DNA from: a virus
Virus record (IMG/VR): IMGVR_UViG_3300005513_000324
Location: 1-24,755 of that record
Strand: one strand, 5' to 3'
Length of the DNA: 24,755 nucleotides
In this document: piece by piece, positions 1,416-15,400 of the stretch
How positions within the stretch are numbered: the stretch's first letter is position 1
Layout of the letters: the number at the start of each line of letters is the position of its first letter
Translations under genes and position numbers: made by a program
The notes under the pieces: model-generated
What the model saw: only the letters and a program-made list of their open reading frames with translations
What the model was told of the DNA's origin: nothing
The model's database searches: none

Positions 1416-2603
1416 ATGGTTTCAGCAGTTCGACATACACCTGATCAGATCGGCATTTTCCGAATGTATGATCCTCTGGTAAAAAGCTATTACCAGGCGG
1501 TCGTGATCAGACGCAGCAAAAAAACCTACCAAAGGCGTTTTTATGAAAGCCGTTGTGGTGGTGAACAGGCTGCACTGAAAATGGCGCAAGCCTGGCGTGA
1601 CACCATCATTGCCAAGTATCCGGCAATGACTACCGCACAATTTTGTGCAATAGTGCGCGCCAATAATACCTCGGGTATTCCTGGTGTCTACCTTAAGACA
1701 AAAGCTAATGGTCGCGGAGCCGTGGAGTCTTACGCTTGGGTCGCTCGTATCCCTTTGGGCACTGGTAAAACTCGTCTTCAAAATTTTTCAATAAAAACCT
1801 ATGGCGAAGACGGCGCCAGACAGCGCGCTATTGATGCCCGCGAAGAGGGACTAGCGTCTCTTGGCAATGCGGTCTACAAACCGGATCAGCAGCCAATGCC
1901 GGTGAGTTCGACAATGGATGTTGAGCAGCTTCATGCAATGTTGCGTTTACCTGAAGAGCGGCGCAAAGAACAGGCCGCGCGACGGAATGCCAAGGCCCAG
2001 CGCAATGTGCAACTGGCGGCAAAAAAGCAGACGGCGGCAGAGGTCGCAGCACAGCAAGCGCTCCAGAAAGCCACAAGCAGTGGGGAACCCTATATTAGCC
2101 GTTACATCGGTGCGGTTGAACGAAGCGGTTTTCGTGTCAGCATCGTGCGAAACGGTCGCAGCTACAGAAAATCCTTTGCCGATGGCATCTATGGCGGCGC
2201 GACGGCTGCACTGGAAGCGGCCAAGATCTGGCGCGATCAGACTTTTTTTGCGTTACCGGCCATCAGTAAGGCCCAGGCCGTTACACGCATCCCGGCAGCG
2301 AATACCAGCGGCGTGGCCGGCGTTTATCTTCGACGTGAGATGGTAGACGGCAAGCGGCGCGAAGCCTGGGTGGCCTACGCACCCAAACAGGCTGGAAAAC
2401 TAAACCGCACCAAGGGGTTTTCTATTGCAAAATATGGTGAAAAGCAGGCGTTTGCACTGGCGGTCCGTGCCAGGCGAGAATTCGTTGCTGAGCTGGGCGA
2501 TGTTCCTCACTTACCTAAACACGCGGCCAGACAGATGTTATTTGCCGCCCAAAAGGCAGCATCGGGATCAGCTAATGCCAACCAGGACGATGATGCCGGC
2601 TAG
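1416..2603 (+). CDS. Protein with two long AP2-type repeat units (putative DNA-binding)
   Basis: This 395-residue protein is built as a tandem duplication. Unit 1 (about residues 25-150) and unit 2 (about 228-362) share the same order of blocks. First comes a basic Tyr-rich strand region ending in GG..AAL..A..WRD (49-62 and 260-274). Then comes N-T-S-G-(I/V)-(P/A)-G-V-Y (84-92, 296-304), then W-V-A (108-110, 318-320), and FSI-K-YGE followed by A-x-AR (124-143, 335-353). This strand-strand-helix pattern with NTSG.xGVY matches bacterial and phage AP2 DNA-binding domains, giving about four AP2-like subdomains. An Ala/Arg/Lys/Gln-rich, probably helical linker (170-222) joins the units. It starts 2 nt after the upstream stop; a second possible start is Met17 (1464). 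DNA binding is inferred from the family and no target is evident. Confidence 0.6.
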   Translation: MVSAVRHTPDQIGIFRMYDPLVKSYYQAVVIRRSKKTYQRRFYESRCGGEQAALKMAQAWRDTIIAKYPAMTTAQFCAIVRANNTSGIPGVYLKTKANGRGAVESYAWVARIPLGTGKTRLQNFSIKTYGEDGARQRAIDAREEGLASLGNAVYKPDQQPMPVSSTMDVEQLHAMLRLPEERRKEQAARRNAKAQRNVQLAAKKQTAAEVAAQQALQKATSSGEPYISRYIGAVERSGFRVSIVRNGRSYRKSFADGIYGGATAALEAAKIWRDQTFFALPAISKAQAVTRIPAANTSGVAGVYLRREMVDGKRREAWVAYAPKQAGKLNRTKGFSIAKYGEKQAFALAVRARREFVAELGDVPHLPKHAARQMLFAAQKAASGSANANQDDDAG

Positions 2604-2758
2604 TTTGCATGCAGTACCTACGTAAATACGATTCAAAAAACGCGTTATTTTGCGTCACGCTAATGCAGCCAGTTTTCCTGCGAGCCCCACGTCACCTGGA
2701 ACGCTGGCGCATTTTCGAACTGCGTTAAAAGCAGATCCGTTAGCACAGTTTGATGATG
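2604..2758. other. Junction between AP2 gene and phage packaging operon
   Basis: This 155-base stretch separates the rightward AP2 gene from the leftward packaging operon, where P2 has its cos end next to gene Q. I recognise no cos sequence, att core or tRNA. On the minus strand, 2746-2660 encodes a 28-codon GTG-initiated frame (ends ...QENWLH) without a ribosome-binding site. It could be a remnant or chance. This stretch could be the cos region or a prophage/host boundary, but nothing visible decides it. Confidence 0.3.
2635..2655 (-). terminator. Weak possible terminator of the leftward P-Q operon
   Basis: Read on the minus strand, an ACGC/GCGT stem (2655-2652 with 2643-2640, 8-nt loop) is followed directly by six T residues (2640-2635). 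The stem is only 4 bp, so this is a weak candidate, but position and T-run fit the end of the leftward operon. Confidence 0.25.
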
Positions 2759-2971
2759 TCAGGCCATACCAGCGCGGCGTAACGCAGCCTGTTCCTTATC
2801 GTAATCATCCCGGCAATCCACATTGCAAAACAACCTCCCATGTGCAACCCGTTCGTCACAAAAGTGGCAGCGGCCGTCACTGTCGAGGGCGATCTGTTTG
2901 CCGACATACGCTCTCGCATTTTGCAGGTCGTGTTCGATACGCCAGTCGGCGCGGTCTGCGATGTCGCTCAT
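2759..2971 (-). CDS. Small zinc-finger protein, third gene of the packaging operon
   Basis: This 70-residue acidic/basic protein has one predicted zinc-binding module in its second half: CHFC, about ten residues, then CNVDC (a CxxC-x10-CxxxC arrangement), followed by a charged helix. The pattern resembles the small Zn-ribbon proteins (DUF2116/TraR-DksA-like) found in P2-like prophages; the exact family is uncertain. Its ATG (2971-2969) overlaps the TGA of portal gene Q as ATGA, so it is translationally coupled to the P-Q operon. P2 itself has no gene here. Possible roles are a transcription or packaging accessory factor, but there is no direct evidence for either. Confidence 0.65.
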   Translation of the reverse strand: MSDIADRADWRIEHDLQNARAYVGKQIALDSDGRCHFCDERVAHGRLFCNVDCRDDYDKEQAALRRAGMA

Positions 2972-4041
2972 TTCTTGTTTCCTTCCCCTGTCAGTAATTC
3001 GTATTCATTAAATTTCACCACCTCCATCCCTAACCAGTCGTTGAGGGTCATGAATTGCGATTGCAGCGGCACCAGCTCGTTGCGGGCAAATACCCTGGCG
3101 GCCGGTTCGATGGCGCCGAAGCCGCCCGTATTGTTCGGCATGATTCCCATTAGCTGGGGCGGCACGCGATGGCCGGCCAGCACATCGTCGCGGGTGACCC
3201 CTTTGATATTGAAGAACTCATCTTTTGCGGCCACATCCGACACGGGCAGGATCTGGATCCCGTCTTTATGGCCGTTTGGCGCGTACATGAACAGGTTTCG
3301 GAAATTGCCAGGTCCTTTGCTGTTGCGCATCGCTTCGCGCAGGTTGTCGACATCCTTGATATCGGCCGCGGCGTCGGTCATGTAGAACACGAAGCCGGCG
3401 TGAGAGCCGTTCTTGTAATACTTGCGTCGAAATAGGGTCGCGGCCTCGTTGAGCCAGGCCGACTGCAGGGCGCTCAAGTATTGAGGCACGCCGTACACCT
3501 CCTGGTTCAGATCCGGGTCCATCAAATGGAAAATGCTCCCCTTCTCGAAGGCATATTCCTGCTGCCAGCCCGCCACAAAAAAGTAGCTATCGAGATCCTT
3601 GCCGCGCCGCATATACTTCGCCAGGGAGTGGTTCAGCTGCAGGAGCAGGCCGCTGCGACTGGCGCGCTTTTCCAGATACCCGTTGCCGAAGGTCAGAAAG
3701 TCCAGCACCAGGCGTTTAAAGGCATCCCGCGACAGGTACTTATTTGGGATAAAAGTCGAGGCCAGGATGTTGGTTTTAAAGTAAATGGCGCTGCTGTGAT
3801 GGACGCTGGCATGAAACGATTTCGCCAGGCCCGCCAGGCTGACAGGCGGCTCATACCACTTGCCGTTCAACCAGCACTCGAAACAATCGAGCACCTCGCT
3901 CTGGTCGAGTACCGGCGTCGGATCGCCGAAGGTGAACGCTTCGATGCCGCCGCCGGCACTGGGGGCGGTTGCCGGCACGGCTGGCGCCGGCGTGGTGGTC
4001 GCGGTACGTTGTGCGGCGTGCCGATGCTGCTTTCTGCTCAT
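2968..4041 (-). CDS. Q: Portal protein (P2 gpQ-like)
   Basis: Portal proteins form the dodecameric ring at the capsid vertex through which DNA is packaged and to which the tail attaches. This 357-residue protein has typical PBSX/P2 portal features: a disordered Ala/Pro-rich N-terminus (residues 1-35), then WYEPPVSLAGLAKSF, a stretch with GNGYLEKR, LMDPDLNQEVYGVPQYLSAL in the middle, and VTRDDVLAGHRVPPQLMGI near residue 300. Its length is close to P2 gpQ (about 344). Its ATG overlaps the TGA of P (ATGA at 4041-4038), and its own TGA overlaps the start of the zinc-finger gene. Order P-Q reading away from the O-N-M-L block is exactly as in P2. Confidence 0.93.
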   Translation of the reverse strand: MSRKQHRHAAQRTATTTPAPAVPATAPSAGGGIEAFTFGDPTPVLDQSEVLDCFECWLNGKWYEPPVSLAGLAKSFHASVHHSSAIYFKTNILASTFIPNKYLSRDAFKRLVLDFLTFGNGYLEKRASRSGLLLQLNHSLAKYMRRGKDLDSYFFVAGWQQEYAFEKGSIFHLMDPDLNQEVYGVPQYLSALQSAWLNEAATLFRRKYYKNGSHAGFVFYMTDAAADIKDVDNLREAMRNSKGPGNFRNLFMYAPNGHKDGIQILPVSDVAAKDEFFNIKGVTRDDVLAGHRVPPQLMGIMPNNTGGFGAIEPAARVFARNELVPLQSQFMTLNDWLGMEVVKFNEYELLTGEGNKK

Positions 4042-11026: not shown

Positions 11027-11492
11027 AGCGCATTTGAAGGCGGCGATTGCCGACCTGACGCGCAACCCCGACAAGCTGCTGATATTTGCCGATGAGGGCA
11101 ATACTGTGGCGACCGGCACCAACTCGTTGTCGTTTGAGTACCGCTACAAGCTCGATATCATCATTACCGACTACAGCGGCGACGCCGATGCCGTCATGGT
11201 GGCGCTGCTGGCGTGGGTCCAGATCCATCAGCGCGATCTGCTGGACAATGCGGAACTGCGCAAGACCGGCATCGGTTTTAATGTCGATTTCAACAATCAC
11301 GAAACGATTGATCTGTCGATCAAGCTGGCGCTCACTGAGCGTGTCGTGGTGAAACAGGCCGGCGCCGGCCGGCTGGAGGTGCGGCATCTGGCAGAACCGC
11401 AGCTGACCCCAGCCTATGCCGACGCGTTCTGGCAGGCTTACGCGGGGGAGTCTCTCATTGCTGAGTGGCACATGCCGGCCGATCCAGCATGA
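11004..11492 (+). CDS. R: Tail completion protein (P2 gpR-like)
   Basis: gpR finishes the tail so that heads can be joined. The 162-residue protein (P2 gpR has 155) starts MYKPQSLRAHL and continues with FEYRYKLDIIITDYSGDADAVMVALLAWVQIHQRDLL, a block characteristic of the family. AGGAAG at 10995-11000 is a good ribosome-binding site for the ATG at 11004. The open frame extends upstream to 10935 inside lysC, but that part is not needed. Its stop overlaps the S start as ATGA. Confidence 0.9.
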   Translation: MYKPQSLRAHLKAAIADLTRNPDKLLIFADEGNTVATGTNSLSFEYRYKLDIIITDYSGDADAVMVALLAWVQIHQRDLLDNAELRKTGIGFNVDFNNHETIDLSIKLALTERVVVKQAGAGRLEVRHLAEPQLTPAYADAFWQAYAGESLIAEWHMPADPA

Positions 11493-11956
11493 CGGACGAT
11501 CTGCGCGCCATCGAGCAATGGGCCGGCGCACTGCTGGCAAAGCTGCAGCCTGGTCAGCGCCGGGTTGTTACGCGCAAGATCGCCCAGGAGTTGCGCCGCA
11601 GCCAGGCGCAGCGTATCGCGAACCAGCAGGCGCCGGACGGTGCACCCTATACGGCCAGAAAGCAGCGCAAGGATCTGCGCGGCAAAAAGGGGAGAATCAA
11701 ACGGCAGAAGGCGGCGATGTTCAATAAGGTGCGCACCACCAAATTTCTTAGAACCACGCAGGACGAAAACCAGCTTTCGGTCGGTTTCTTTGGGCGCGTG
11801 GCGCGGATCGCCCGCGTGCACCAGGATGGTCTCACCGACAAGGTCGCAAAGAAAGGACCGGAATATCGCTATCCGGCCCGGCCCTTACTTGGTTTTAGTG
11901 CTGGCGACCAGGCGTTGATTCGTGACGCATTGCTGCGTCATATAGGATCATTTTGA
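11489..11956 (+). CDS. S: Tail completion protein (P2 gpS-like)
   Basis: This tail completion protein has 155 residues (P2 gpS has 150). Family features are the N-terminal DDLRAIEQWAGALLAKL helix, RIANQQAPDGAPYTARKQRK, the basic GKKGRIK segment, and the C-terminal YPARPLLGFSAGDQALIRD. The start at 11489 is chosen for the ATGA overlap with R. Its last 19 nt overlap, tail to tail, the 3' end of the leftward HEPN gene. S is therefore intact at the left edge of the inserted cargo. Confidence 0.92.
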   Translation: MTDDLRAIEQWAGALLAKLQPGQRRVVTRKIAQELRRSQAQRIANQQAPDGAPYTARKQRKDLRGKKGRIKRQKAAMFNKVRTTKFLRTTQDENQLSVGFFGRVARIARVHQDGLTDKVAKKGPEYRYPARPLLGFSAGDQALIRDALLRHIGSF

Positions 11957-12679: not shown

Positions 12680-13417
12680 ATGTATTTTCATTTCACGGGC
12701 ACAAATGTCCGGTTGCTTGGTTCTTTGCATGGGTTTCCCCTGGCTAAACCAGATTTGCCAACTTGGGTATCAGATGCGTATGAATGGTCTGAGTCTGTTG
12801 TTTTTGAATCAGATCCCCCGACATTGCTGGACTTCTGTAGGGCTCAAGATGGCATTGGTCTACAGAATAAGATATCCGCAGACATTTACGCTGAGCTTGA
12901 GAAATTCTGGCCATCTTCCGGTCCGGTTTCGCCTCTTAGCGAACTACATCCTTGGGCCGCAAGATTGTTCGCACCGGCGTTTCTTGTGCAGAAAGTTGAC
13001 GGTGTGGAGGCTCGTTTTCTTCGATCGGCAATCGAACATTCAAAGGCAATTCAATTCTTGGAAACAGCACAAGATGTGGCGCGAGCATTCGACTCAATCC
13101 CCTTGGCCGAGATACAAGCAGATCTGAAAAATCTCGTTTCGGATTTGTCCGGACCTCAGCGAGTGTTAACTCAAATGCACAGTGCTTGGCTAACTCGAGA
13201 TCTGGAAGCCTTTTGGCTTGTTGCAAGCAAATTGCCGATGATGAAGTTTCCTGGAGCTCGAAACGCTGTGCTTGATTCTCGAAATCTTGCGTGGGTTCCT
13301 CCAATTCGTCAGATACTTGGAAGTACCAAGCGGACACTCATTGTTGTAGGGGCCTTGCATCTTTGTGGTCCTGGTAATCTCATTGACCTGCTTGCTTGCA
13401 ATTTAGAACAGATTTAA
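12680..13417 (+). CDS. TraB/GumN (TIKI-like) family protein, prophage cargo
   Basis: This 245-residue protein begins with a strand followed by GSLHGFP (G14-x-x-H17), and ends with IVVGALHLCGPGNLIDLL (G224-x-x-H227). These two GX2H motifs, with a conserved acidic residue after the first (E43 in VVFESD) and an Arg-Asn pair (RNLAW) in between, define the TraB/GumN/TIKI clan, whose animal members are metalloproteases. No signal peptide or membrane anchor is seen, unlike many GumN relatives, so it is probably cytoplasmic. The gene is AT-rich like its divergent HEPN neighbour and unlike the phage structural genes, indicating separate acquisition. A strong terminator follows. The function in this phage is unknown; protease activity is inferred from the motif residues only. 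Confidence 0.72.
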   Translation: MYFHFTGTNVRLLGSLHGFPLAKPDLPTWVSDAYEWSESVVFESDPPTLLDFCRAQDGIGLQNKISADIYAELEKFWPSSGPVSPLSELHPWAARLFAPAFLVQKVDGVEARFLRSAIEHSKAIQFLETAQDVARAFDSIPLAEIQADLKNLVSDLSGPQRVLTQMHSAWLTRDLEAFWLVASKLPMMKFPGARNAVLDSRNLAWVPPIRQILGSTKRTLIVVGALHLCGPGNLIDLLACNLEQI

Positions 13418-13437: not shown

Positions 13438-13460
13438 TATTGTCGTATTAATCGACAATA
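13438..13460. repeat. 8-bp inverted repeat abutting the terminator
   Basis: TATTGTCG (13438-13445) and CGACAATA (13453-13460) form a perfect 8-bp stem with a 7-nt AT-rich loop. It ends one base before the terminator hairpin. It may reinforce termination or be an operator; no other copy was noticed in the window. Confidence 0.5.
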
Positions 13461-13486
13461 AAAAAGGCACTGTCCAGTGCCTTTTT
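13461..13486. terminator. Bidirectional rho-independent terminator
   Basis: AAAAAGGCACTG and CAGTGCCTTTTT form a 12-bp perfect palindromic stem around a 2-base centre, with T-runs on both strands. It lies between convergent genes (TraB-family on plus, ending 13417; methyltransferase on minus, ending 13503), so it can stop transcription from both sides. Confidence 0.9.
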
Positions 13487-13502: not shown

Positions 13503-14345
13503 CTATATTGATCTGATTAGATGTCTTGCGATCCACTGCGCGACTTGCGGCACAACGGCATTTCCGGCAGCATGAGTTTCCGCAAAGTTGGCCGCATCCA
13601 GTCCCCTGCAAAGCCCATGATCGTCAACCGTTCGCTGCCGATTAACCATCTGATTCCAGCCGTCGCCGGCAGCGACGAGGCCCGAACCGCTGATATCAAT
13701 CTGTCCGGCAGAACTCCCTGATAGAAGGGTAGGATGTGCCCATGCGGTGATTTCGACGGGGTATTCTGTCGGGCGCGGCGGGCCTGAAAACGTTCCCACT
13801 GGAGCGGTGTCAGCCAGCAGCTCAAGGGGAGGGTGTTTGCCAAGACCTGCGACCATGAAAACTCTTCTGCGACGCGTGGGGACTCCGAAATATTGAGCAT
13901 TAAGCACTCGCCAGCATCCCAGATACCCGCATTCGGCAAGGGCAGCGATGACTGTCTGGAAGTCTTCGCCATGGTTGCTATTGAGGAGCCCCGTGACGTT
14001 CTCAAGCACCAGCCATTGGGGCCGAAGCTCGTTGATGATGCGGATGACTTCGAAGAAAAGGCCAGTGCGACTGCCGGCGAGTCCGCGCCGCTTGCCCATG
14101 GCGCTAACGTCCTGGCAGGGGAAGCCGCCGGTGATGACGTCGACGCGGCTGAGGTTGCTTGCGCCGCAGAGGCGGACATCGTCGTATTGCGCGGCTTGTG
14201 GAAAGCGGTCCCTGAGGACCGCCCGGCAGATGGGATCGATTTCGACTTGCCATGCGGTGGTAAAACCGGCGTTTTCGAATCCGAGATCGAAGCCGCCGAT
14301 GCCGGCGAACAGACTACCGATGGTTGGTTTTTGCTTGACATACAT
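13503..14345 (-). CDS. C5-cytosine DNA methyltransferase
   Basis: This enzyme transfers a methyl group from SAM to cytosine in DNA. Motifs in order are: I, SLFAGIGGFDLGFE (11-24); IV, GGFPCQDVS with catalytic Cys77; VI, LVLENV (113-118, ENV); VIII, RRRRVFMV (158-165); and X, GNAVVPQVA (261-269). The region between VIII and X (about 166-255) must hold the target-recognition domain and is short. The usual motif IX pattern is not obvious. At 280 residues it is smaller than Dcm (about 470). No restriction endonuclease gene lies nearby, so it is an orphan that may protect phage DNA or alter regulation. Its ATG lies inside com (32-nt overlap) without a clear Shine-Dalgarno sequence, suggesting Com-dependent translation. 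Confidence 0.92.
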   Translation of the reverse strand: MYVKQKPTIGSLFAGIGGFDLGFENAGFTTAWQVEIDPICRAVLRDRFPQAAQYDDVRLCGASNLSRVDVITGGFPCQDVSAMGKRRGLAGSRTGLFFEVIRIINELRPQWLVLENVTGLLNSNHGEDFQTVIAALAECGYLGCWRVLNAQYFGVPTRRRRVFMVAGLGKHPPLELLADTAPVGTFSGPPRPTEYPVEITAWAHPTLLSGSSAGQIDISGSGLVAAGDGWNQMVNRQRTVDDHGLCRGLDAANFAETHAAGNAVVPQVAQWIARHLIRSI

Positions 14346-14502
14346 GAGAGCCCACTGGATCAGATGCTCGGGGGCATACTGGTGCGGGGCGCGCGGCCCT
14401 CAGTTGATTTAAGGTTTTGCAGCGGGGGCATTTGAGAGCGAGGGAGATGTATTCGCCCTCGCCGAGTTTCTTGGAACAATTGCCACAACGGATTTCTTGC
14501 AT
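14314..14502 (-). CDS. com: Com-family zinc-finger translational regulator
   Basis: This 62-residue protein resembles phage Mu Com: MQEIRCGNCSKKLGEG, then LALKCPRCKTLNQLRA. It has four Cys (C6, C9, C25, C28) in a CxxC-x15-CxxC zinc site. Mu Com binds the com-mom mRNA and opens a stem that hides the mom start. Here com overlaps the start of a C5 methyltransferase gene by 32 nt, mirroring com-mom. The C-terminal part (after residue 40) is Pro/Arg-rich and lies in the overlap, so it is probably unconstrained. AGG precedes the ATG. Regulation of the methyltransferase is inferred from this layout. Confidence 0.85.
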   Translation of the reverse strand: MQEIRCGNCSKKLGEGEYISLALKCPRCKTLNQLRAARPAPVCPRASDPVGSHVCQAKTNHR

Positions 14503-14755
14503 CTAGGTATACCTGCATAAAAATGCTAAGCTTCGGGCCGCCTGTGCACAGGTGGCGCGGCCCTGGGCCTTGCTTGCAGCCGTATTCTGCAGGCACGGTG
14601 GCGTGGTCGGTGTTCGAAGCACTGACCGCGTCGCCGCGTCTTAACCCGAACTTTCTCACGCGCACGCGGCCTGCGAAACCGCGACGGGGTTGATAAGCCG
14701 TATATCAACCCTCTGCCTGATGCGCGCCGAGCGGCAACCCGGCAACATGCAGAGC
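14503..14755. promoter_or_regulatory. Divergent region between com and V, rich in palindromes
   Basis: This region holds no convincing gene. It contains a 10-bp palindrome AGGTATACCT (14505-14514) just upstream of com, a GCAT/ATGC hairpin close by, and a 12-bp palindrome CCTGTGCACAGG (14541-14552) set in longer GC-rich inverted sequence. The late dyad lies at 14687-14711. The first elements could control com, the dyad controls V. The exact com promoter is not evident. Confidence 0.45.
14687..14711. promoter_or_regulatory. Late-promoter dyad upstream of V (putative Ogr-type activator site)
   Basis: GGGTTGATA (14687-14695) and TATCAACCC (14703-14711) flank a 7-nt spacer, the same core as at 5869-5893 but with a different spacer sequence. 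The flanking CTCTG to the right is also shared. It occupies the place of the P2 V promoter. Its centre (14699) is 57 nt from the V ATG at 14756. Confidence 0.65.
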
Positions 14756-15400
14756 ATGAACGCCGAACTGCTCGAACTCACCCGCCTGCTGCACAACATG
14801 ATCCGTCTCGGCACCATTGCCGAAGTGGCTAACGGTCGCGCCCGTGTGCGTCTGAGCCCAAAGCTGACGACAACCTGGTTGCGCTGGGCGGCATTGCGCG
14901 CAGGCGACGCCCGCAGCTGGTGGGCGCCTTCGGTCGGGGAACAAGTCGTCCTGTTGTCGCCCGGTGGCGACCTCACTGCTGGCGCCATCCTGCCGGCGAT
15001 CTATTCCGATGCTTTCCCCGCGCCGTCCGACAATCCTGCCCTGCATGCCACGTATTACCCGGATGGTGCGGTTGTCCAATACGACTCGCAGGCGCACACT
15101 CTGGTCGCCACGCTGCCGGACGGTACCAGCGTCGCCGCGGCTCCTGGCAAAGTCACCTCTAACGCCGAGGATACGGAATGCACGGGCAATCTGCTGGTGC
15201 AAAAGAACCTGACCGTCAACGGTTTTGCGGCCCTGAATGCCGGCATGAACGTCCAGGCCGGCAAGGAAGGCGGTCCGGCTGCGGTGATCGATGGCAGCAT
15301 GCACGCAACGGTCGACGTGACCGCCGCCGGCATCAGCCTGGTGAAACACCCACACGGTGGGATAAAAAAGGGCGATGAAGATTCAGGGGCGCCGAAATGA
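14756..15400 (+). CDS. V: Baseplate spike protein (P2 gpV-like)
   Basis: gpV is the membrane-piercing needle at the tail tip. The 214-residue protein (P2 gpV has 211) starts with the ELLELTRLLHNMIRLGTI helix, followed by an OB-fold region (GRARVRLSPKLTTTWLRWAA, VGEQVVLLSPGGDL). A beta-helix-like repeat region follows (LLVQKNLTVNGFAALNAGMNVQAG). The tip carries the H-x-H iron-binding motif HPH (198-200) in VKHPHGG. ATGs at 14756, 14747 and 14690 are in frame; 14756 fits the P2 N-terminus best. No Shine-Dalgarno is evident. The stop overlaps W. Confidence 0.93.
   Translation: MNAELLELTRLLHNMIRLGTIAEVANGRARVRLSPKLTTTWLRWAALRAGDARSWWAPSVGEQVVLLSPGGDLTAGAILPAIYSDAFPAPSDNPALHATYYPDGAVVQYDSQAHTLVATLPDGTSVAAAPGKVTSNAEDTECTGNLLVQKNLTVNGFAALNAGMNVQAGKEGGPAAVIDGSMHATVDVTAAGISLVKHPHGGIKKGDEDSGAPK

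Follow-up and report, generated by a model that had tools for sequence, protein, structure and literature searches.

Introduction

The com-mom operon has so far been regarded as a peculiarity of phage Mu. By SELEX and SHAPE, the target of Com is a hairpin loop carrying CC(N)2-3GAG, together with a bipartite motif, GAG(N)2CC (PMC6483171). The SELEX motif was obtained with the Com of H. sputorum (Haemophilus), not with the Com studied here. In Mu a hairpin of the form AUG-CC-NNN-GAG-CAU lies just 5' of the downstream start (PMC6483171), and the occluding helix is a separate CCCAC/GUGGG stem.

Genes other than mom are also found next to com. The Mu-like prophages FluMu, Pnme1 and Hia5 carry adenine methylases in the mom slot, and Drozdz et al. 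2012 reportedly treated methylases in this position. To our knowledge the regulatory RNA of such prophages has not been examined. In the P2-like Burkholderia phages KS5 (gp21/gp20; PMC3091744) and AP3 (L263), com overlaps a gene for an N4/N6 methylase. No RNA element or regulation of the KS5 pair is described in the relevant sections of PMC3091744. E. coli phage Chuche (L264) also has a com-methylase pair that was annotated earlier.

The window examined in this study is the whole stretch of DNA analysed (24,755 nucleotides), a 24.7-kb P2-like phage fragment from an IMG/VR record, whose capsid, tail and baseplate genes are of P2 type. An initial annotation, made from the sequence alone, described com overlapping a C5-cytosine methyltransferase gene and suggested that Com control is a portable switch for DNA-modification genes.

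Results and Discussion

The com-methyltransferase cassette

A two-gene com-methyltransferase cassette is located between S (tail completion, 11465-11956) and V (baseplate, 14690-15400), in the orientation opposite to the structural genes.

14314..14502 (-), com, encoding a 62-aa Com zinc-ribbon protein (PF10122 Zn_ribbon_Com, 1.4e-12; PHROG 6417, 3.1e-17)
13503..14345 (-), C5-cytosine DNA methyltransferase gene, 280 aa, ATG start (PF00145, 2.1e-57; NCBIfam TIGR00675, 1.8e-51)
14314..14345 (-), 32-nt overlap of the com 3' end and the methyltransferase start in a different frame, from ORF coordinates
13460..13481 (-), possible intrinsic terminator GGCACTGGACAGTGCC-TTTTTT just 3' of the methyltransferase gene, found by eye

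The com product scored 47.3 bits against PF10122 (cut-off 22.9), and the PHROG that it matches is annotated 'translational regulator'. The zinc-binding cysteines Cys6, Cys9, Cys25 and Cys28 (CGNC...CPRC) are all invariant in the Com alignment. Profile and cysteines together place the protein in the PF10122 zinc-ribbon family; mRNA binding and translational activation by it are inferred. The gene 3' of com encodes a C5-cytosine DNA methyltransferase as judged by the PF00145 match and the motifs PCQ, ENV and GNAVVP. By eye the set of C5 motifs in its translation is complete (FAGIGG, GFPCQ, ENV, RRRRV and GNAVVP). A promoter scan found no promoter, and a consensus terminator scan of the window did not report the GC stem and T-run at 13460..13481.

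Both gene identities and the 32-nt overlap given in the initial annotation held. Its statement that the methyltransferase gene lacks an evident Shine-Dalgarno sequence was fair, as only a weak one is present (-3.4 kcal/mol against the anti-SD). Median Shine-Dalgarno energies were -6.0 kcal/mol for com-linked N4/N6 genes and -3.2 kcal/mol for com-linked C5 genes. Its placement of a C5 methyltransferase in the mom slot was also correct. The cassette has two traits of the com-mom type, com upstream and overlapping and a CC(N)2-3GAG hairpin before the start, and lacks Mom itself, which a strict com-mom operon would have to contain.

The window shares with Mu the Com family and the overlapping gene order, and differs in that its downstream gene encodes a C5 methyltransferase (PF00145), not Mom. 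It resembles FluMu, Pnme1 and Hia5 in having an unrelated methylase at the mom position, although theirs are N6-adenine enzymes. KS5 and AP3 have the same gene overlap, with an N4/N6 instead of a C5 methylase. With these phages and the Mu-like prophages already annotated, the com-methylase gene pair itself is not new.

Two other genes in the window were noted. A TraB/PrgY/gumN-family protein (12680-13417, (+); PF01963, 3.3e-34) adjoins the methylase cassette and is unusual cargo between P2-like S and V genes. The other, at 1416-2603 (+), lies 5' of the portal/terminase genes and encodes a protein of 395 aa in which two stretches match an AP2 domain (PF00847).

com precedes unrelated modification genes

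When related C5 loci were collected using the methylase sequence alone, com was directly upstream in 78/80. Given this frequency and a near-universal overlap, the arrangement is not due to chance. In the two com-less C5 relatives (L031 and L073, ~2700-3060) another gene reaches the methylase start, and the Com element described below is absent too.

Com searches of viral contigs and genomes generated 233 distinct com loci, a sample that leans to Burkholderiales phages. The gene after com was a C5 methylase in 82 loci, a D12 N6-adenine methylase in at least 66 and an N4/N6 methylase in 52; Mom-like genes followed in 2 and a small ORF plus ABC-ATPase module in 14. A look for com beside other methyltransferases had been proposed in the initial annotation, and C5, D12 and N4/N6 partners were all found. 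com overlapped the next gene in 82/82 C5, 64/66 D12 and 49/51 N4/N6 pairs, and the methylase start was ~157-161 nt 3' of the com start in all three classes alike.

The overlaps raise the possibility of plain translational coupling, in which ribosomes ending com open the overlap and re-initiate, and the Com protein has no part. The 32-nt overlap and weak Shine-Dalgarno sequence in the window are in its favor, as is overlap in nearly all pairs. We consider coupling unlikely as the explanation. Mu Com acts by binding mRNA (PMC6483171), and coupling leaves unexplained both the covariation of hairpins that carry the Com target in their loops and the stand-alone elements before second methylases, where no com overlaps. 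Control by Com through an RNA element is the reading that we prefer.

A two-hairpin Com element in the 3' end of com

The 3' ends of com genes, compared side by side, contain GAG-NN-CC words and a pair of hairpins, spaced 22 nt from each other, that follow the pattern NNN-CC-N2/3-GAG-N'N'N'. In the window the element falls within the last third of com, at codons 34-49.

14357..14402 (-), two-hairpin Com element (model R1), 58.6 bits, E 8e-18, the single strong match in the window
14387..14399 (-), hairpin 1, GGG-CC-GC-GCG-CCC, columns 4-16 of alignment A2, with a stem that covaries in relatives
14364..14377 (-), hairpin 2, AUG-CC-CCC-GAG-CAU, also AUG-CCCCCGAG-CAU, with a loop that fits CC(N)2-3GAG (PMC6483171)

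The stem of hairpin 2 is identical to that of the Mu Com site AUG-CC-UGC-GAG-CAU. The loop of hairpin 1 has GCG in the window where most relatives carry GAG. The window has two hairpins in tandem, unlike Mu. AP3 has the same Com element (58.7 bits). Loops of the family hairpins match the published in-vitro Com target, and binding by the window Com is inferred from this match. A search of 14200-14560 against Rfam gave no matches up to E = 5.

Since the element lies within codons of com, the hairpin pattern could be a mere coding constraint on the Com tail. This explanation was rejected and is all but excluded. With the protein held fixed and synonymous codons drawn at random (300 trials), at least one perfect hairpin was expected in 3.5/98 genes, with a maximum of 9. 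Perfect hairpins were observed in 79/98 non-redundant com genes, across all classes. Codon choice also argues against it: AGG encodes Arg35 of com in 33/42 cases, compared with 82/1521 Arg codons of the downstream genes. The Com tail is reported to be dispensable for RNA binding (PMC6483171), and copies of the element without com are a further objection.

Covariation was examined in an ungapped alignment (A2) of 46 non-redundant sequences chosen on the hairpin 2 loop only. All six stem pairs covary. Cells were paired in 98.2% of cases, compared with 82.8% in shuffled alignments and at most 59% in slid controls. Double changes in the stems numbered 39, compared with 4.6 in shuffles (0/500 shuffles). 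RNAalifold, run unaided, recovers the same two hairpins.

These data bear on two other explanations. In the first, Com would act by binding DNA, with the repeats serving as its operator. In favor of it, the stems form inverted repeats, and some genome annotations label Com a DNA-binding regulator. This is very unlikely, in that the stem arms vary freely provided they pair and the loop CC..GAG is constant on one strand, as in RNA hairpins; moreover, the element is inside a transcribed gene, near a start codon. In the second, the conserved com 3' end is a recombination junction for methylase swapping with no regulatory role. The same com is indeed joined to many unrelated genes. A junction would preserve sequence, however, not compensatory base changes, and the stand-alone copies are likewise just 5' of gene starts. 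We regard this explanation as very improbable too, and an RNA site for Com remains the favored reading.

The covariance model matched 78/78 com-bearing C5 loci and 0/2 com-less ones; most of these C5 loci were outside its training set. Used without protein information, a 37-base DNA pattern derived from the element occurred at 19 places in viral contigs, and 19/19 were com 3' ends before a methylase or ABC-type module. The Chuche region gave no covariance-model match; by eye it has a CC-ATC-GAG word with a poor flanking stem.

Stand-alone copies without com

A second copy of the element was found directly 5' of a second methylase gene, with no com sequence upstream, in five contexts. The carriers are L002 and L182 (Collimonas-type), L187 and L024 (Glaciimonas), L009, L190 and L152. 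The second methylase is N4/N6 in most and C5 in L152.

L002 4010-4056, stand-alone Com element
L182 4010-4056, stand-alone Com element
L187 4010-4055, stand-alone Com element
L009 4035-4079, stand-alone Com element
L190 3263-3307, stand-alone Com element
L152 3554-3599, stand-alone Com element

With scoring limited to the 150 top candidates of each genome, model matches in records searched whole were confined to these sites and the copies within com; a 5-Mb genome, for instance, gave two. A pattern search aimed at the stand-alone variant gave no record beyond one already known. As these copies have no com, neither coding constraint nor translational coupling to com can explain them. One Com that serves two genes can account for them.

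The proposal that Com control is a portable switch is therefore supported by comparison, on the basis of a covarying Com element that precedes modification genes of five unrelated kinds, stand-alone copies included. There is no bench or reporter evidence.

Possible occlusion of the methylase start

The initial annotation had also suggested that a stem hides the methyltransferase start, to be sought by folding the mRNA around 14345. Folds of the window junction were no more stable than shuffles (z 0.19 and -0.40). Since they are unusual in neither direction, our argument does not rest on global stability. One pairing partner of the start was found in hairpin 1.

14345..14355 (-), start region GUGGGCUCUCA, complementary to CUGAGGGCC(G)CGC on the 5' side of hairpin 1 (14403-14391)

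The start thus pairs with hairpin 1 rather than hairpin 2 (CUGAGGGCC with GGGCUCUCA). The duplex has an energy of -17.9 kcal/mol and p = 0.07 against shuffled start regions, so that a hidden start in the window is suggestive only. This helix is a possible candidate for inhibiting translation, without expression data. A relative (L024) makes the same contact with different bases, UGAGGGCC with GGCCCUCA. Textbook switches are found at some loci; in L151, hairpin 2 sequence GAGCGUCC is perfectly complementary to GGACGCUC 5' of the ATG. In the window the candidate occluding helix uses segments of the hairpins, as opposed to the separate stem of Mu. In Chuche a CCCCAC...GTGGGG repeat (L264 2106-2160) surrounds the start of the D12-type methylase, resembling the inhibitory stem that covers the GUG of mom in Mu.

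For the family as a whole, start regions (-16 to +3) scored -9.69 in pairing with their own upstream com segment and -8.61 +/- 0.23 with those of other loci (0/300 permutations). A downstream-sequence control went in the opposite direction. Start-region pairing in the C5 class alone was not significant (100/300 permutations). When both hairpins were forced, the cost of opening the start fell by 3.18 kcal/mol family-wide, compared with 1.66 +/- 0.23 when start regions were exchanged (20 permutations). In the window the relief was just 0.7 kcal/mol, with 2.6-7 in relatives, and forcing hairpin 2 alone gave no relief. Permutation counts were modest and secondary-structure energies are rough. The folding predictions point, family-wide, to a methylase start that is masked in free RNA and becomes accessible when the Com hairpins form; for the window by itself they are only suggestive.

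The whole locus is probably best explained as a Com-controlled, portable DNA-modification cassette of a P2-like phage, again with no expression data. The data demonstrate that the two genes overlap, that the association holds family-wide, that the hairpins exist, covary and match the published Com target, and that stand-alone copies occur. In the proposed mechanism, the mRNA in the last third of com would present two short hairpins with CC-N2/3-GAG loops as Com sites. In the free RNA the methyltransferase start would pair with hairpin segments (here UGAGGGCC with GGGCUCUCA) and translation would be low. Once Com has accumulated, it would bind and stabilise the hairpins and free the start. The methyltransferase would then be made late, so that phage DNA is protected and the cell is spared earlier. 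Re-use of the same element before unrelated modification genes would make it a portable switch. Binding of the hairpins by the window Com, translational activation, its timing and the protective role are all inferred.

Com elements beyond com-mom

The com-methylase pairs of KS5, AP3 and Chuche were already known. In the literature searched, which included few subscription journals, we found no earlier report that such an element is conserved, that it covaries or that it occurs without com, and priority is uncertain. A covarying, strand-specific element that does not differ between five unrelated modification genes, and that is present also without com, would mean that Com activates DNA modification in phages generally. 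The element supplies a search model for Com-controlled genes and a route to new modification enzymes. Together with Com it makes a compact protein-RNA switch, and base-pair swaps offer a test of the binding site.

A bolder reading, toward which we lean only slightly, is that Coms of phages and prophages run small regulons via a transferable two-hairpin element. A single Com, acting on separate copies of the element, would drive two different methylases, and further Com elements would control uncharacterised ABC-GNAT/formyltransferase modules, maybe new DNA-modification systems.

In L240 (3001-5039), L130, L295, L297, L298, L301 and L306, com is followed by an overlapping small ORF of ~55 aa. 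L240 and L130 additionally carry an ABC-ATPase-GNAT acetyltransferase fusion (PF00005 + PF00583) and a formyltransferase (PF00551). The small-ORF, ABC-GNAT and formyltransferase genes could conceivably be an uncharacterised DNA-modification module under Com control.
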